Shown: in pieces, positions 1 to 6,990 of the stretch
Layout: each line of letters starts with the position of its first letter
Numbering within the stretch: the first letter of the stretch is position 1
Source: Cyclobacteriaceae bacterium
GTDB lineage: Bacteria; Bacteroidota; Bacteroidia; Cytophagales; Cyclobacteriaceae
Direction: 5' to 3'
Length of the DNA stretch: 64,000 bases
Assembly: GCA_013141055.1 (NCBI GenBank)
Contig: JABFRS010000002.1
Location: forward strand, 992,001 to 1,056,000
The notes under the pieces: generated by a model
What the model saw: the letters and a program-made list of their open reading frames with translations, nothing else
The model's database searches: none
What the model was told of the DNA's origin: nothing
Position numbers and translations under genes: made by a program

Positions 1-3
1 GTT

Positions 4-133
4 TGGAAAGCCGAGTTCCGAGGCTTTCCACTGTAGGCCTTGCAGGGTCTTCAGTACGAATGCGCTAGCATTCGTACATCTTGCCGAAACCAGAATGTGG
101 GTTTCTGACCTTTGGCAAGTCTGAGATTCAGAC
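4..133. repeat. cluster of tandem hairpins at left edge
   Basis: Successive perfect or near-perfect inverted repeats fill this stretch. Arms at 4-12/22-30 (9 bp, loop 9) are followed by 54-63/68-77 (10 bp, loop 4), then a two-part hairpin with arms 81-85/114-118 and 86-91/100-105, and a last hairpin 119-124/128-133 (6 bp, loop 3). A weaker dyad around AGGCCT lies near 32-46. No open reading frame explains them. They sit just downstream of the HTH gene that ends at 162. Dense hairpins of this kind occur at transfer origins, recombination sites and structured RNAs; the sequence alone does not decide which. Confidence 0.7.
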
Positions 134-161
134 CTCTTGGAAACTGCCTTGACCATGTTTT

Positions 162-461
162 TCAGGGGTTGATCTTTTTTCCTGCGAAATGTGGATTATG
201 CTTATGCGCCTCAATCATTTTTTGGAGGTCGTCATAGTCGTAAAAGATGACTCCGCCGATTTTGGTAAAGGGCAGGGTCCCGTTGACGCGGAGGTTCGCG
301 AGAGTGCCTGGAGAAAGACCCAGTAGCCTTCTTATATCACGAGATTTGAGCCACTTTCGTGCAGGCGTGGTTTGTCGTTGTGCGAGGAGATTTTGTATCT
401 CCGCCAGCAGTTCCTGCTTGAAATTTTGCAGGTTTTCGAGAGTGATGATTGTTGTTGCCAT
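162..461 (-). CDS. helix-turn-helix (excisionase/MerR-like) DNA-binding protein
   Basis: A 99-residue protein with an N-terminal helical part (about residues 8-30) and a winged HTH (about residues 36-85) containing LKSRDIRRLLGLSPGTLANL followed by the wing LPFTKIGGVIFYDYDDL. This layout is that of the HTH_17/excisionase-like proteins common in Bacteroidota integrative and mobilizable elements, where they act as recombination directionality factors or regulators. The assignment rests on that pattern; no partner integrase is visible. Tandem GTAACAGG repeats lie 50-75 bases upstream of its start and may be its operator. The first hairpin cluster of the window lies directly downstream. Confidence 0.8.
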   Translation of the reverse strand: MATTIITLENLQNFKQELLAEIQNLLAQRQTTPARKWLKSRDIRRLLGLSPGTLANLRVNGTLPFTKIGGVIFYDYDDLQKMIEAHKHNPHFAGKKINP

Positions 462-511
462 AACCGTTTTGATTATGGCTCAAAGGAAAGGCGGGAGTGT
501 TTTCTAAAACA

Positions 512-534
512 GTAACAGGGGTAACAGGTACCCC
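512..534. promoter_or_regulatory. tandem/inverted repeat upstream of the HTH gene
   Basis: The 8-base unit GTAACAGG occurs twice at a 9-base period (512-519 and 521-528). It overlaps a 6-bp inverted repeat, GGGGTA (518-523) and TACCCC (529-534). It lies 51-73 bases upstream of the minus-strand HTH gene. It is a plausible binding site for that HTH protein or for a recombinase; function is inferred from position only. Confidence 0.4.
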
Positions 535-603
535 GGTAAGTTGTTGAGGATCAATCACAAAAAATTGTTTTCGTGCCGTTTTTTAAGATGCAATTGGCAG
601 CAT

Positions 604-2031
604 CTAAACCTGTCGAAAGAAAGGTTCTTTAAATTTCTTTTCGTAGACCTCCATTTGAGTCATTGGGTAGTTTACAACCTTGTTGTCATATCCCACGGAC
701 TTCAAAATAAGTACCGCAAGTAACGTATAAAGCCTAAGAGCTATGTAATAGATCTCTGTACTTGCATTTTTGTTATCATTTGTAATACCTAAAGTCAATC
801 GTCCATGTAAAAAGTCGTTTCTATGTTCAATAGCCCGAAGATCTTCTTGTGAAAGCTTAAATTTTAAAAGCTCAAATGGCTTAGTCAGTTTTGCTTTATT
901 GGTTAATTGGTTAATATTCTCAATCCTTGTTTTCAGAATCTTGATACCCTCTGGTTGAAGGCTTTTGCTATTGTCGTCAATGACCTTATTTAATTCAGCC
1001 CTTACCTTCTTCGAAATCTTCTTGTCCTGAATTGGTGAAATGGTTTCTTTATTTGTCTCGATAATCAAGTTCGTCAAACCCTCCAAAGCAACCGACATCC
1101 CCGCAGGCATAATGACAAGGGAGGCTGCAGTCGCCTCAATGATAAGAAGCAACACGGAAGAGAATTCTAATGAATCATGCGCCCATTGACAGAGCTTAGA
1201 GAATTCCTCTCTTCGAAGAGGGCGAAGAGTTTTATTAACCTTGTCGGTGGCTTTGAACTCGCTTCGATCTCGCATTAAGCCAAAGGCGTTGGCATAAATA
1301 GGCGAGTACATTGATTTAATCGATGGCCGAAGGTCCGAATAATATACATCTTTGGGTTTTTGCCGGCCAGCATCGTCGTATGTAATAAAATATCCTTCAT
1401 CTTGTGGCATTGAGCCGGTGACGTATCCGAATGACACTATTGTTGAAAAGCAATAATCAATGAATTTCTCAAAGGAAAGCTTTTGAGAAACATCGAAAAT
1501 AACATAAGTCGAATTTGTTGCTTTGTCCGAGTACAAGTAGAGGTCCAAGTCCAAATTGGAATAATTTATCCTTATGCAATCTGAACTTCGATGCTTTTTT
1601 GTTTGGTATCCGAACAGCGCAATGTAGAAGTGGAAATCAGTCCGTTGCCTTAGCGGGACAAACAATCTATAAAAATTGTTTTCGGTCTTCTTGAACTGAC
1701 CAATGCTGAAATTTGAAACCGAACCAGATACATTTGAATCAGAGATATTATTAATGAAGACCTTTTCAACATTGAATTCAAAACTATTGGAAGTTAGCTT
1801 TACTTCTGCAACGTCTCCTAAATCATATCGATGCGCGTGTTCATCCTCGATGTTGAGCTTGAATCCTCTGTCCACTTTTTTTAAGTAAGCCAGTACTTTG
1901 TCGAGGCGACTATTTGACTTATTAATCGTTACGTAGTGATCTTCCTGTAGCTCATTTATCAAGTCCAACGACTCAAAAATATTTTTGTGATTGGGAGTGG
2001 CATTTGGATTAATAATTCGTGGCATATTCAT
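604..2031 (-). CDS. large protein with C-terminal HEPN-like domain (possible ApeA-type defence protein)
   Basis: A 475-residue soluble protein that I do not recognise by full-length family. The first about 210 residues look beta-rich with alternating hydrophobic strands. The C-terminal half is helical and carries R404-N-D-F-L-H409, a match to the R-x4-6-H motif of HEPN ribonucleases, just before a long hydrophobic helix. A beta-rich N-domain plus a C-terminal HEPN is the layout of ApeA-like abortive-infection proteins, so an anti-phage RNase is a reasonable guess, but the motif is short. It is in an accessory region beside an excisionase-like gene, which fits defence cargo. Start ATG 2031 is followed by a second Met at residue 3. 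Confidence 0.6.
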   Translation of the reverse strand: MNMPRIINPNATPNHKNIFESLDLINELQEDHYVTINKSNSRLDKVLAYLKKVDRGFKLNIEDEHAHRYDLGDVAEVKLTSNSFEFNVEKVFINNISDSNVSGSVSNFSIGQFKKTENNFYRLFVPLRQRTDFHFYIALFGYQTKKHRSSDCIRINYSNLDLDLYLYSDKATNSTYVIFDVSQKLSFEKFIDYCFSTIVSFGYVTGSMPQDEGYFITYDDAGRQKPKDVYYSDLRPSIKSMYSPIYANAFGLMRDRSEFKATDKVNKTLRPLRREEFSKLCQWAHDSLEFSSVLLLIIEATAASLVIMPAGMSVALEGLTNLIIETNKETISPIQDKKISKKVRAELNKVIDDNSKSLQPEGIKILKTRIENINQLTNKAKLTKPFELLKFKLSQEDLRAIEHRNDFLHGRLTLGITNDNKNASTEIYYIALRLYTLLAVLILKSVGYDNKVVNYPMTQMEVYEKKFKEPFFRQV

Positions 2032-2090
2032 GAGATTAGGGTTCTCAAGGATCGAGAATCAATTTACTAAATCTCACGGTTACCTACCTG

Positions 2091-2534
2091 TCAATCTGCT
2101 GAAACCTTCTTGAATGAAATTGAATGATTATTTCCTGGATACAAAAAGTGGGTAGTTATATCTAGAGATAGGGTGTTTGCAGCAATGAATTGATCGTTAG
2201 TGAAGGTAGCGGTTTTCGCATCGAAAGTCATTAGAGCTGTTGGGTTGGGGCGATCCTCGTCGTGATCCATGTTTTTCCAGCCATCTTTATCATAGTCATT
2301 CAGTTTCCATTTGCGATTTGAGACCTCGAACTTTTGATCGATAGGCTGAATGAAAATTGTGTCACGGATTGTTCGCATCCCAATTTCGGCCCCGGTTTCG
2401 GGATTAGTTACTCTCATTGAATATTCCCTTGCATACGTGCCCGAGATATTGTCGGTACCAGTATCACTATTCTTCTTTCCACATGACATCAAACAAATGC
2501 CAACTGAAACGATAATACAAATTTCTGTTTTCAT
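2091..2534 (-). CDS. small predicted lipoprotein
   Basis: A 147-residue protein with a lipoprotein signal peptide ending in the lipobox LMSC (Cys at residue 18), so it is probably anchored in the inner or outer membrane. The mature part is polar and Asp-rich (NDYDKDGWKN and MDHDEDRP) with a lipocalin-like series of short strands; the first half has TGTDNISGTYAREYS, a start typical of small lipocalin-like lipoproteins in this phylum. No catalytic motif is visible. It starts 12 bases after the stop of the 386-residue gene, so the two are probably cotranscribed. Confidence 0.6.
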   Translation of the reverse strand: MKTEICIIVSVGICLMSCGKKNSDTGTDNISGTYAREYSMRVTNPETGAEIGMRTIRDTIFIQPIDQKFEVSNRKWKLNDYDKDGWKNMDHDEDRPNPTALMTFDAKTATFTNDQFIAANTLSLDITTHFLYPGNNHSISFKKVSAD

Positions 2535-2545
2535 AACCCGAATAT

Positions 2546-3706
2546 TTAATTGCTATTTATGTATCCAATCGCCGTGTGAAGGAGGTTTTTAACGGCGTCC
2601 TTCGTACTGCTCTCCACATCGTAATATTTTATCCGAAGGCTTTCCGGTGAAATGGTACCCGATCTCTTCGTTTTAACAAATTTTGATAGGAACCGTATAA
2701 GTTCGGATACGTTTTTGTTCTGTATGACACCAGATTCGACAAACGCCTTTGTGAAAAGAGCGAATTGCGAAACGGACATATCTAGTTCGACCTTGAAATC
2801 ATCTTTTTCGGCAGTTGGTTCCTCAATTTGCCGGGCCCGGGCAGGAAGCTTGTTTTGAATAAAGAGAATTTCCTCCCGTAGCCAGTTTGATAAATCCTCT
2901 CTGATCGATGGTGAATTGATGTCGTAAGCAACTCCTGGCTGTTGTCTGCTTTGATTTACCTGCTTGAAATAGAATGCTAATGTTGCAGCCGCGTCAGGTT
3001 CAAAGTCTGTCTGGATGTGGGCTGTGTAGTATCTAAAGTATTCAGGAGAATTGAAATTCAGGCTTAGTAGGATCGCTTGTATTGCGGCATTCGGTTCTTT
3101 GAATGTGGCATCCTCTTTTAGGTTCAACACTTGAGCAACCAGATCCTCGACATAAGACATCAATCGATAGGTAATTCTCATTGCACTCAGAAAGGCACGC
3201 GAAGTACTTGTAAGGATGCCAGCCAGGACCGGGTTTATTTGGTTGACAAGTACAAATTCCTCTAACCTGCTTGCTTCCCTGGAAAATCGTTTTACAAACA
3301 CTGACCTTTTTAATTCTGGCACCTTCGCCTCGACATTAAAAAATGATTTGAATTCCACCTGAATGAAATCAAGAATCCCCTCCACCTGGTCACAAAAAAA
3401 GAATGCCTCTGACCTTAACGCGACATTCAACACATTTTTTTTAGGAGCCTCTTGCGTTGCCAAAAGGTATAATTCATCAATGAAGGTGATCAGGCAACTC
3501 TGGTGGTAGTGGACGTAGCGCGTTACCTGATCCTTGTCTTGGAAAGCTACCACTTGCATTGCAAATGAATTCCGGACCCTTGCCTTCTCTTCCGCAACGG
3601 CTTTCCGAGTATTTGCAAATTGCTCCCCAAGAGAACTCTTGGATTTTATTGTTGAGCTGACTGCATTTCGGATCAAGGATTCGATATTTCTAAATTCATA
3701 GTCCAA
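2546..3706 (-). CDS. protein with RteC-like C-terminal domain
   Basis: A 386-residue, mostly helical protein without signal peptide. The last about 85 residues (DMSVSQFALFTKAFVESGVI, then KNVSELIRFLSKFVKTKR and SPESLRIKYYDVE) match the pattern I know from RteC-type and related proteins of Bacteroidota, in which such a segment forms a helix-turn-helix-like DNA-binding end. RteC activates excision genes of Bacteroides conjugative transposons. The N-terminal 300 residues are not recognised. Its position, two genes from an excisionase-like HTH gene, fits a regulator of an integrative element. Function is inferred from the C-terminal pattern only. Confidence 0.55.
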   Translation of the reverse strand: MDYEFRNIESLIRNAVSSTIKSKSSLGEQFANTRKAVAEEKARVRNSFAMQVVAFQDKDQVTRYVHYHQSCLITFIDELYLLATQEAPKKNVLNVALRSEAFFFCDQVEGILDFIQVEFKSFFNVEAKVPELKRSVFVKRFSREASRLEEFVLVNQINPVLAGILTSTSRAFLSAMRITYRLMSYVEDLVAQVLNLKEDATFKEPNAAIQAILLSLNFNSPEYFRYYTAHIQTDFEPDAAATLAFYFKQVNQSRQQPGVAYDINSPSIREDLSNWLREEILFIQNKLPARARQIEEPTAEKDDFKVELDMSVSQFALFTKAFVESGVIQNKNVSELIRFLSKFVKTKRSGTISPESLRIKYYDVESSTKDAVKNLLHTAIGYINSN

Positions 3707-3867
3707 TCGCCCTGCATTTTTCCTTCCCCTGATTTATTGACAACCAACTTGACGATGCAAAATTTCAAGGTTTGACACCGTCATGCAATAGGGAAAATGG
3801 CGTAATCGGGTACATACTTCTATGTAGTTTCCCGGATTGGGATAGCAAATTGGGGGATAATTAAGGG

Positions 3868-4809
3868 TTAATGGACTTGTACATCCCGTTGCTCAAGTTT
3901 ATTGATCAGTTCAACTTTGTTAGTGGCCGAAACCTTGGAAAAAATATTGGAGACATGGCGGGCTACCGTTTTCTCGGAGATTCCAAGGTCTGAAGCAACG
4001 ATTTTATAAGGGTGCCCCTTCATGATCAGTCTTGCTATTTCAGTCTCCCTGGACGTCAAATTGTATTTCCCGCAATTCACTTCAATAAGCTTTTCCAGGC
4101 TATGCACCCGATCTAGAAGTAGGTCATATTCCCTTCTAGCCTGATGTATCGATGACCGGATATACACTAAGGTCATCACCATGAACCCGGAATTAGTCAC
4201 AGAATGTTCCAAAACCTGAAAATCTCCGAAAAAGACTATCAACGGTAATGCTACCCAGCATAACAAGGCTATGTAGGCAGATATCACCAATTGGAATTTT
4301 ATCCTGTCGGAGTATTCCCTCTCCCGGAATTTGTAAATGAACGCACGAGTTGTCGCGCCGATAAAGGCAATACCATAAAGAAACGGGATGACTACGCCCA
4401 ACTTCCTACTTTGAGCAAGATCACCTGTTATATAGTACGGCACTACAAACAAGAAAAGGAAGGGCACAAAAAGGAATATCAAAGAACCAAAGGTGACAAA
4501 GAATTTGAGGCGTCTGAGATTAAATGCTTTATAGTAGTAGTAAACGAAGTACATCGACGTTCCAAATGCAAAGAGGTAAGCCAAAATGGTTTGCAGCATT
4601 ACCGGGATGGGAATGTTTTGATCGGGAAATAATCCGCTGGTGATGTTGTAAAGGATTACCGAGACAAGGAGGATAAGGTAAAGAAGTCGCTTTCTATCAC
4701 TCGTTCTTTCCAGAAAATAGATAACCTGGAAGAATAGCATTGCCATCTCGAATACGGTTATCACGAAGGTAACCATGTGCATCTGCGTGCCCATGAAGTT
4801 CATAACCAA
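3868..4809 (-). CDS. membrane-anchored LuxR-family transcriptional regulator
   Basis: A 313-residue protein with about seven hydrophobic segments in residues 8-225 and a LuxR/GerE helix-turn-helix at about 245-310 (LTSRETEIARLIMKGHPYK followed by ISEKTVARHVSNIFSKV). A membrane sensor fused directly to a DNA-binding domain implies that the regulator acts from the membrane without a kinase. The hydrophobic part has no recognisable ligand domain. Several Met codons (residues 1, 3, 6, 10, 12) make the exact start uncertain. The neighbouring GNAT gene upstream is on the same strand, 60 bases away. The LuxR domain is certain; the signal is unknown. Confidence 0.8.
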   Translation of the reverse strand: MVMNFMGTQMHMVTFVITVFEMAMLFFQVIYFLERTSDRKRLLYLILLVSVILYNITSGLFPDQNIPIPVMLQTILAYLFAFGTSMYFVYYYYKAFNLRRLKFFVTFGSLIFLFVPFLFLFVVPYYITGDLAQSRKLGVVIPFLYGIAFIGATTRAFIYKFREREYSDRIKFQLVISAYIALLCWVALPLIVFFGDFQVLEHSVTNSGFMVMTLVYIRSSIHQARREYDLLLDRVHSLEKLIEVNCGKYNLTSRETEIARLIMKGHPYKIVASDLGISEKTVARHVSNIFSKVSATNKVELINKLEQRDVQVH

Positions 4810-4869
4810 TGCAGTCTATTCTACCTACTAACAAATTCAAGCCTCATAAACCAAACAAAGTCTTCTTAA

Positions 4870-5445
4870 TCACAAAGAGCCTTTTACTCTGCGCATCATG
4901 TAAAGGGTATAGGTAAAGTCTAATGTGTTGAAGATCTCAAACCCATGTTTTTTGTACCAAGAAAGATTCTTCTCGACGGACGTTTCAAGGTAAATAGGCC
5001 TGCTGTCTTGTCCCTTAATGACCTCATTCAGCAACTGGCTGCCTTTTCCTCTGCCTTGGACCTCCGGTCTGACTCCAACAAACCACAGGTAGCTGAAAGG
5101 TTCCTTCGGATGGAACGCTTTGATCTTCGATTCACGGCTCAAGACTTGACCTACCCGGCTTAAACCAATAACGGATGTGGCGAGTTTCACATCCCTTAAA
5201 ATCGCATCGAGATTTGTCCTTTTACAATCAGGTAGTAGGATCAGCGCGCACGCCTGCTCATCATCTGAAACCCATACCTCACCAAAAGCATTGCAAACAT
5301 TATATGAATATTCCATTAAGCCCCGGACGCGTTCCTTTCTTCTAGCGTCCTGCTTGACAACATAATTGACACTCTTATTGTCATCAAATGATGCCGCGAG
5401 AATATCCACCACTACAGACTTCTTCTCTCCTCCAGTTCTTACCAT
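4870..5445 (-). CDS. GNAT family N-acetyltransferase
   Basis: A 191-residue protein of the acetyl-CoA-dependent N-acetyltransferase fold. The acetyl-CoA binding loop is seen as VQGRGKGSQLL (about residue 130), preceded by the strand FSYLWFVGVRPE and followed by YLETSVEKNLSWYKKHGFEI, the usual GNAT C-terminal part. The substrate is not deducible. Two copies of an ACCATATG-centred repeat lie directly upstream of the start (5457-5497), which may be an operator. It lies in the accessory region between a LuxR regulator and a DUF4238 gene. Confidence 0.8.
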   Translation of the reverse strand: MVRTGGEKKSVVVDILAASFDDNKSVNYVVKQDARRKERVRGLMEYSYNVCNAFGEVWVSDDEQACALILLPDCKRTNLDAILRDVKLATSVIGLSRVGQVLSRESKIKAFHPKEPFSYLWFVGVRPEVQGRGKGSQLLNEVIKGQDSRPIYLETSVEKNLSWYKKHGFEIFNTLDFTYTLYMMRRVKGSL

Positions 5446-5456
5446 TTGTTAATTCC

Positions 5457-5497
5457 TTAGTTACCATATGATAAGAAATTAGTTACCATATGTTAAG
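5457..5497. promoter_or_regulatory. paired palindromic direct repeat upstream of GNAT gene
   Basis: The 19-base unit TTAGTTACCATATGNTAAG occurs at 5457-5475 and 5479-5497, 22 bases apart centre to centre, about two helical turns, with one difference. The core TTACCATATGTTAA is itself nearly palindromic. This is the geometry of a dimeric repressor or activator operator. It ends 11 bases before the start of the minus-strand acetyltransferase gene. Confidence 0.45.
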
Positions 5498-5719
5498 TGA
5501 ACAAAACGTGAAGGCCAACATTTTGCCTAAGTAAATTTAATTTCAACTTGAAAAATAGATTACACCTTATAAGGAGAGTCGCGCCTTTTGGACGATTACT
5601 AATGTCATTTACCGACTAGAATACAAAACTTGAGGTTCATGCGGTCGAATAACCATGCTGAGAACACAGATCAACCAATTCATTGAGTTGGGGAGTGCCT
5701 TGCCAAATTTTCTTTACCC

Positions 5720-6736
5720 TCATTTTAGTGACATGACTAGCGAAATCCTGATTGATCCCAACTGGACAAGCCTCAGTATTTCCTTCATATCTTTTTCCAT
5801 TTCAAGTCGGTCTATTAGCATTTCGTAGTTTTCGGGCGTGTGGGCACCATACTTGCGCTGATCCAAAACATGCGCCCGAACTGAATTTGGCTTTCCCAAC
5901 AGCCAATCTGTCGAGTGTTGCTCGGTGTTGTAGTTTATTTTGAGCGCAAAAAGTTTATCCCATGACCCTCTGCCGATTGACTCACCAGTACCAACGTTTT
6001 CGGAATTTGGATAAATGGTAAGATAATGCTTGTTATCTAGGGGAAGTTCGATCATGTTTTCCGGATCGAATATACTTTGAAATCTCCCTTTCATGCGTCG
6101 AATAACGACCGGATTGTCTGAGGTTATAAGTTCCCCATCATCATAAATCCTACTTACCGCAACATTTGCATTGATCTTGATTCTTGTAAAGTCATGCCAT
6201 GCCTCCAGGTGACTGTGCAGGAACTTCTTTTTATTTTCTATATGGTAGTCTTGGCGAACGTTCTCTTCTTCTCCGTTTTGAACGTCATAAGCCTTTCCAT
6301 CAAATGTGAATTTTATTCTGCCATTTCCATCCATTTCGTGTTGTGCCCGTTCAAGAGCCGTGTCAAACCTCTCCTCGTGAAACTTTAGAAAACGCGGAGT
6401 CCTAAAAAACATGCTCATTACCGTCATTAACATTTTCACCTTCTGCAAAGCCGTCATTATTTTGAAGGTGGGGTCGATCAGCCAATTATAAATTTCGGGA
6501 TAAACACTATCGACATGCTGCGCGTAGAAGTCCTCGAGGGCGTACTTTTTTGCGCTGTCAGTTTTGGGGATTGTATACAAGTTTTTATTAACACAGATAT
6601 CTGCTATACTAATAAGTCTTTCTTTCGGCTGCTCGTCAGAACGATACTTAGCCTCAACCATGAACTTATCTTTCTCTGTTTCGAGGGCAAAATTCTTTAG
6701 GTAGGATCGCGGAATAAAATGTTGGTGTTTTTTCAT
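5720..6736 (-). CDS. DUF4238 domain protein, C-terminus possibly frameshifted
   Basis: A 338-residue protein opening with KKHQHFIPRSYLKNF, the hallmark start of DUF4238, and carrying the second family motif LITSDNPVVI near residue 210. The biochemical role of DUF4238 is not established to my knowledge; such genes are common in accessory regions. The last 18 or so residues may be the product of a frameshift: another frame stays open from about 5803 to a stop at 5637-5639 and encodes protein-like sequence including MRVKKIWQGTPQLNELVDL. A run of five T at 5792-5796 is a candidate slip point. In either case the N-terminal 310 residues are solid. Confidence 0.75.
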   Translation of the reverse strand: MKKHQHFIPRSYLKNFALETEKDKFMVEAKYRSDEQPKERLISIADICVNKNLYTIPKTDSAKKYALEDFYAQHVDSVYPEIYNWLIDPTFKIMTALQKVKMLMTVMSMFFRTPRFLKFHEERFDTALERAQHEMDGNGRIKFTFDGKAYDVQNGEEENVRQDYHIENKKKFLHSHLEAWHDFTRIKINANVAVSRIYDDGELITSDNPVVIRRMKGRFQSIFDPENMIELPLDNKHYLTIYPNSENVGTGESIGRGSWDKLFALKINYNTEQHSTDWLLGKPNSVRAHVLDQRKYGAHTPENYEMLIDRLEMEKDMKEILRLVQLGSIRISLVMSLK

Positions 6737-6744
6737 ATCAAGTG

Positions 6745-6773
6745 CGTCGTAAAATTTGAAATAAATTTCGACG
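6745..6773. repeat. inverted repeat upstream of DUF4238 gene
   Basis: Arms CGTCG + AAATTT (6745-6749, 6752-6757) pair with AAATTT + CGACG (6763-6773) around a short loop, with a two-base bulge. It starts 9 bases upstream of the DUF4238 start codon on the minus strand, so it would fall in the promoter or 5' leader. It may be an operator or a leader hairpin. Confidence 0.35.
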
Positions 6774-6856
6774 ATCTGAACTCTTCATCGCGCTCTTCTC
6801 ATCATTTCACGATGATGCCTTAGGATTCAGTCACTAGATTACTTTATAGAGGTAAC

Positions 6857-6878
6857 TGCCCCGAAAATGCCCCGAGAA
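6857..6878. repeat. 11-bp-period direct repeat next to tRNA-Cys (possible integrase arm site)
   Basis: TGCCCCGA occurs at 6857-6864 and 6868-6875, each followed by an A/G-rich triplet, giving an exact 11-base period. It lies just beyond the tRNA-Cys terminator, on the island side. Tandem short repeats near a tRNA 3' end are what tyrosine-recombinase arm-type sites look like. That reading is inference; no integrase gene is in the window. Confidence 0.35.
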
Positions 6879-6880
6879 AT

Positions 6881-6912
6881 AAAAAAAGACCCAGCGCTTA
6901 TGCGACTGGGCC
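6881..6912 (-). terminator. terminator of tRNA-Cys
   Basis: Arms 6888-6897 and 6902-6912 form a GC-rich hairpin (GCCCAG...CTGGGT on the minus strand) followed on that strand by seven T (6881-6887). It starts 4 bases after the encoded CCA of the tRNA. Confidence 0.8.
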
Positions 6913-6916
6913 TTCT

Positions 6917-6990
6917 TGGAGGTCTCGAGCGGATTCGAACCGCTGTAGGAGCTTTTGCAGAGCTCAGCCTAGCCACTCGGCCACGAGACC
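6917..6990 (-). tRNA. tRNA-Cys (GCA)
   Basis: On the minus strand the acceptor arms GGTCTCG and CGAGACC pair perfectly, followed by discriminator T and an encoded CCA (6919-6917). The anticodon stem GAGCT/AGCTC encloses the loop CTGCAAA, giving anticodon GCA for cysteine. The T arm shows GCGG-TTCGAAT-CCGC. U73 is the expected discriminator for tRNA-Cys. Its 3' end points toward the accessory region, as expected if an element has integrated at this tRNA. Confidence 0.95.

Follow-up and report, generated by a model that had tools for sequence, protein, structure and literature searches.

The HEPN gene and the element that carries it

The window, the whole 64,000-nucleotide stretch of a Cyclobacteriaceae genome that was analysed, begins inside an integrative conjugative element, whose right-hand end takes up positions 1–6936. 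Within this part lies a gene whose product was originally predicted to be 475 residues long. The minus-strand reading frame at 604–2031 does start with ATG and encode 475 amino acids, the plus strand of the same interval is interrupted by stop codons throughout, and the frame is a real gene. The positions of the gene, of the parts of its product and of the surrounding landmarks are collected in Table 1.

Table 1. Features of the HEPN gene and of the right end of the element, in window coordinates.
Feature	Position	Strand	Basis
Gene for 475-aa ApeA-like HEPN protein	604..2031	minus	ORF call, ATG start, homologues, AlphaFold2 model (pLDDT 85.2)
N-terminal strand-rich region, ~residues 14–236, presumed sensor/regulatory part	1324..1992	minus	Predicted secondary structure
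C-terminal HEPN domain, residues 266–475	607..1236	minus	Pfam HEPN_Apea, profile match to canonical ApeA, domain model, structural comparison
E317 codon, invariant acid in HEPN helix 307–326	1081..1083	minus	16/16 aligned family members
R404-N-D-F-L-H409 HEPN motif, predicted catalytic	805..822	minus	R404, N405 and H409 invariant, 16/16
Small HTH_17 DNA-binding protein, excisionase-like, mobile-element gene	162..461	minus	Pfam HTH_17, E = 5.3e-08
attR, 18-bp direct repeat of attL, right end of element	6919..6936		Exact repeat
tRNA-Cys (gca), integration target	6917..6990	minus	ARAGORN

The mobile element that had been guessed at from the neighbouring genes is indeed present: an integrative conjugative element at tRNA-Cys, 59.6 kb long between a pair of 18-bp direct repeats. 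These repeats are attL at G000:C2:939371-939388 and attR, which starts at C2:998919 (window 6919) and lies within the 3′ end of the tRNA-Cys gene. The element's integrase is of the tyrosine type by its match to Phage_int_SAM_5 (E = 3.9e-10); with the model of the catalytic domain, no match reached E = 0.001. Conjugation and mobilisation genes encode RadC, a TraG P-loop protein, TraJ and TraM of Bacteroides conjugative transposons, RteC, a YWFCY/T4SS coupling protein, a relaxase and MobC. Defence-like genes encode type III methyltransferase and restriction subunits, a DrmD-like SNF2 helicase, an LmuB-like ATPase and a DUF4917/PDC-S21 protein. The HEPN gene is cargo of a conjugative element rich in restriction and defence genes.

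Several cargo genes are described here in their own right. The genes for DUF4917/PDC-S21, the DrmD-like helicase, the LmuB-like ATPase and the type III Mod and Res subunits form a same-strand cluster (L009:870-13598, minus strand), which also holds a 312-aa protein with no Pfam or PADLOC match and is possibly one composite defence system. Elsewhere on the element, a second HEPN gene (L019:1084-2271, minus strand; G000:C2:957084-958271) encodes 395 aa with a C-terminal Pfam HEPN match (E = 4.7e-15); its N-terminal part resembles, by eye, sigma-70 region 2 and then a nucleotidyltransferase-like segment. Ahead of attR, the final cargo gene encodes a DUF4238 protein (window 5720–6736, minus strand; E = 2e-29).

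The tRNA-Cys gene and rpsA lie within one 6-kb stretch in all eight related genomes examined, and none of these eight contains DNA similar to window positions 1–6916. The PadR-like gene to the left of attL has 14 matches in the genome, so it could not be used as a marker of the empty site. The G+C content of the HEPN gene is 38.2% (41.8% at third codon positions), compared with 50–53% at the third positions of three host genes; the low value is in keeping with a recent arrival. At the tRNA gene of another genome (G732, L066:1140-1407), the 3′ end of tRNA-Cys is repeated three more times in a row as 33-bp copies, which resemble scars of earlier integrations.

Motif, fold and kinship of the C-terminal domain

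Arg404 and His409 form the sole R-x4-H motif of the protein, with exactly the numbering and in the helical C-terminal domain given by the original prediction, as both the sequence and the structural model bear out. The bare motif proves nothing, because at least one R-x4-H is present in 36% of composition shuffles of the 475-aa protein; the narrower pattern R-[NDH]-x3-H is found in 6.7% of such shuffles. Since the motif is this common by chance, the case rests on its conservation among homologues.

Conservation was assessed in an alignment of 16 members, the window protein and 15 relatives, which leaves out two of the 17 loci found in genome and viral contigs, L042 (a short ORF) and L045 (whose match values equal those of L039). 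Pairwise identity among the 16 is nowhere above ~64%. Twenty-one columns are invariant, including E317, R404, N405, H409 and G410, each 16/16; D406 is replaced by glutamate in one member and L408 by phenylalanine in one. HEPN domains are marked by R-x4-6-H with a polar residue after the arginine, which appears here as R404-N405-x3-H409 in every member, and by an acid in helix 2, typically as E-x3-[KR], which appears here as E317. The residue at +4 from E317 is lysine in 9 of the 16 members and asparagine in the window protein.

The AlphaFold2 model of the whole protein, built on the homologue alignment, has a mean pLDDT of 85.2 and a pTM of 0.82. It reproduces the layout of a beta-rich N-terminal half and a helical C-terminal half, with a strand-rich stretch at residues 32–233 and helices from residue 249 onward. 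The modelled helices comprise residues 274–286, 288–301, 307–326, 337–353, 360–371, 378–388, 395–402 with 404–408, and 420–445. R404–H409 forms the end of helix 395–408, ahead of the long last helix 420–445, and E317 lies within helix 307–326; according to PMC3710099, the motif and the conserved acid of HEPN proteins occupy corresponding helix positions. The model fits a HEPN bundle in which the motif ends helix 3, with comparison Z-scores of only 5–8 and no significant Foldseek match. As far as tested, it predicts a HEPN-like placement of the motif, in a bundle where the arginine and histidine are not set apart.

Foldseek, run with the whole-chain model against the PDB and BFVD, gave no match at E ≤ 0.001 and returned pore-receptor and unrelated rows. 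With the C-terminal domain modelled alone (pLDDT 86.5), nothing was significant and the best E-value was 1.9. A structural comparison of the domain over 749 chains placed Csm6 5fsh at the top (Z 7.6, 126 residues aligned, 5.2 Å), to be read with the other rows since Z-scores of 5–8 may be background for helical folds, are singly indecisive and count through their agreement. The ten best matches also contain the Csm6 entries 8jh1 (Z 7.1) and 6tug (Z 5.2), the HEPN-titled entries 2hsb (Z 7.0), 7ae6 (a HEPN toxin, Z 6.5), 8yuf (Z 6.3) and 4nqf (Z 6.2), the entries 2q00 (Z 6.3) and 7bxo (Z 5.6), which we take to be HEPN-type, and one designed protein, 8ka6 (Z 5.4).

HEPN_Apea is the only Pfam match below E = 1 (E = 0.003, residues 314–450), at 18.4 bits against a curated cut-off of 24.4, and it is found at E ≤ 1 in only 2 of the 16 family members. 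Canonical ApeA was represented by a profile of 11 proteins from the same phylum that carry ApeA_NTD1, 10 of which also match HEPN_Apea at E ≤ 0.01; among 15 genomes with ApeA_NTD1, the loci L056, L058, L059 and L060 were excluded as short, cut or below the cut-off. The family profile aligns with the canonical profile over residues 172–455 with a score of 56.2 (E = 2.6e-06 for one pair), against 21.2 for the reversed control and 21.3 for the best of 100 column shuffles. Restricted to the HEPN halves, the comparison gives 42.1, against 19.0 for the reversed control and a maximum of 22.4 among 100 shuffles. E317, R404 and H409 align with E331, R412 and H417, each of which is invariant in 11/11 canonical ApeA proteins. 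The predicted link to the ApeA and HEPN families is thus favoured by the profile searches, through a HEPN_Apea match below the cut-off and an ApeA profile match above its shuffles.

Searches of PDB sequences with the family and canonical ApeA profiles returned nothing, or chance matches such as coiled coils, so that the PDB copy searched yielded no ApeA structure by sequence. Pfam, the profile match and the structural comparison are three independent lines of support for a HEPN fold of ApeA kin in the C-terminal domain.

The N-terminal half, the family and its surroundings

The N-terminal half has no family match in the libraries searched. PF18862 (ApeA_NTD1) gave no match in the gene's own genome at E ≤ 10 and is present in 0/16 family members. 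When the N-terminal halves alone were compared, profile to profile, their score of 18.2 equalled the best of 100 shuffles (18.2; reversed, 17.4). The original description of the protein as ApeA-type is therefore apt for layout and effector domain and does not extend to the whole protein, because the N-terminal half is not ApeA_NTD1 as judged by sequence. PADLOC models matched none of the 16 family members, whereas 10 of the 11 canonical ApeA proteins used as a control were matched (PDC-S58 and Cas13-ApeA models). With neither ApeA_NTD1 nor a PADLOC match, the protein is assigned to an ApeA-like sister family and is not filed as ApeA; the members of this family seen here are all from Bacteroidota. 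No paper on it was found in a literature search that covered few subscription papers. The effector is of a known kind; neither the family nor its sensor half is represented in the libraries searched. The gene is a sound, slightly under-catalogued defence candidate.

Structural comparison of the whole chain also gave PilZ-type (c-di-GMP) and protease-like rows for the N-terminal half; their Z-scores of up to 5.9 are at background level, and nothing was concluded from them.

The gene is single-copy in its own genome by the search used. Among 395 genomes of the phylum, eight matched at E ≤ 0.001, its own included, and seven stand once a false homologue has been removed from them and from the alignment (the match in G164, a BNR-repeat protein); in one of the seven, G154, the homologue has an in-frame stop. 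An eight-member profile found 7 of 395 genomes of the class at E ≤ 1e-5, again including its own, with one match being a 46-residue fragment. Closer to home, 39 near relatives yielded matches only in the own genome and in one of the same order, and no homologue was found in the 24 further genomes from the genus, several of which are incomplete drafts. Of 72,556 plasmid records, two matched, one from Chryseobacterium and one from Hymenobacter, and the phage record collection gave no match. Scanning genome contigs with the single protein sequence found no relative; scanning them with the profile found 16 loci, presumably all from Bacteroidota, as judged by the names in their record titles. One locus, L045, came from viral contigs, with match values equal to those of the Spirosoma locus L039. 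The family may be more widely spread, since the search patterns were built from Bacteroidota sequences.

Individual homologues have features of their own. The viral-contig homologue (L045:4665-6128, plus strand; compare L039) adjoins tail tape measure-like ORFs. Another (L025:997-2964, plus strand), 655 aa long, carries an N-terminal extension that is gamma-glutamylcyclotransferase-like by eye, and adjoins the end of an HsdR-like gene. At a third locus, a 306-aa ORF (L031:5097-6017, plus strand) overlaps the start of the homologue and contains RNDIAHG, so that two HEPN-type proteins may stand in tandem there.

None of the six window neighbours recurs in the 26 homologue loci, some of which have short flanks; the HEPN protein itself matches in 26/26. 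Ten neighbours of homologues were chosen by eye, with no random control, so the count of seven that match PADLOC models and three that do not is an illustration and not a statistic. The matched ones are type IIG, type I and type II methylation or restriction proteins, IetS, PDC-S73, an AriA-like ATPase and, weakly, a TIR protein.

Proposed working, alternatives and known systems

It is proposed that the gene is probably a single-gene abortive-infection system: it would encode a phage-activated HEPN ribonuclease that belongs to the ApeA-like sister family, and is defence cargo of the integrative conjugative element. Support comes from homology, the predicted HEPN fold, the invariant predicted catalytic residues, the mobile and defence-rich setting and the lack of a conserved partner gene; the dimer, the ribonuclease activity, its substrate, its trigger and the anti-phage effect are what we infer. 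HEPN ribonucleases are described, in PMC3710099, as dimers with a composite site of R-x4-6-H, an acid and a polar residue, which act without metal and leave 2′,3′-cyclic ends; HEPN homodimers are likewise described in PMC13405049. The window protein would dimerise via its C-terminal HEPN domains, with E317, R404, N405 and H409 of both copies brought together in one composite RNase site that works without metal. The N-terminal half, rich in strands, may keep the RNase off until it meets an infection product, which could be a ligand, a phage protein or a nucleic acid. Once released, the enzyme would cut cellular RNA, either tRNA or mRNA, translation would stop, and the infected cell would then fail to yield phage. 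ApeA is reportedly activated by deoxydinucleotides, according to the title of a preprint. The trigger may differ here, because the sequence of the N-terminal half is unlike that of ApeA.

The protein might instead be a diverged ApeA, with an N-terminal half that is ApeA_NTD1 beyond sequence recognition and with the same trigger, the deoxydinucleotides of the preprint title. Its length and domain order equal those of canonical Bacteroidota ApeA, from residue 172 the full profile alignment covers the last part of the N-terminal half, and these halves, compared by themselves, take a nearly equal register (columns 170–215 versus 184–229). Nevertheless, the score of those halves does not exceed that of their best shuffle (18.2 in both cases; reversed, 17.4), PF18862 is missing from all 16 members, and the G/T-L/W positions conserved in canonical ApeA are not seen in the 16-member alignment, which makes this reading rather unlikely. 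It would be very hard to sustain that the likeness to HEPN is a chance product of motif and helical fold in a protein of other function: Foldseek gave no significant match and the bare motif is frequent by chance, yet the profile match stands far above its shuffled and reversed controls and aligns three of the predicted catalytic residues.

Two other roles for a HEPN protein on such an element were weighed. The gene could encode a toxin that, paired with an antitoxin from a neighbouring gene, prevents loss of the element as a toxin–antitoxin or addiction module. HEPN toxins are found in such pairs, as in MNT-HEPN (PMC4621449), and genes at 2091–2534 and 2546–3706 lie immediately upstream on the same strand; both of these, however, lack a Pfam match, and with 0/6 neighbours recurring in the 26 homologue loci the proposal is improbable. 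Also quite improbable is a HEPN protein, catalytically active or inactive, that serves the element through transfer control or exclusion rather than phage defence. The gene does lie near the excisionase, mobilisation and coupling genes of the element, but the settings of its homologues differ (plasmids, restriction loci and a phage-like contig with an adjoining 1356-aa tape-measure-like ORF), and the predicted catalytic residues are retained in all aligned members.

The phage-activated HEPN ribonuclease proposed above may be a kind of bacterial defence against viruses that has not yet been listed. If so, defence catalogues would lack a whole Bacteroidota family of single-gene RNase defences, which would have spread via conjugative elements, plasmids and one prophage-like contig. 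With a common effector and differing sensor halves, comparison with ApeA could reveal what each half detects. It is tentatively suggested that the proteins form a distinct Bacteroidota abortive-infection RNase family, in which an ApeA-like HEPN effector is joined to an unrelated sensor for a different infection signal by a modular sensor swap. HEPN RNases that are kept off until triggered would be useful also as RNA tools.

By structural comparison, the HEPN arrangement predicted for the window protein resembles that of the solved Csm6, RnlA and MNT-HEPN toxin structures, at Z-scores that may be background (5fsh, Z 7.6; 7ae6, Z 6.5; RnlA 6y2r, whole-chain Z 4.3); the protein differs from them in having no Pfam CARF or nucleotidyltransferase match and no conserved partner gene. 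From ApeA (PF18862 + PF18739; PADLOC PDC-S58 / Cas13-ApeA) the window family differs in that no ApeA_NTD1 is recognisable, the HEPN_Apea match stays below its cut-off and 16/16 members have no PADLOC match. The two are alike in length, in the register of the E, R and H residues and in the order of strands then HEPN; the ApeA layout given in PMC3710099, ~300 aa of strands followed by HEPN, is the same as that of the window protein.
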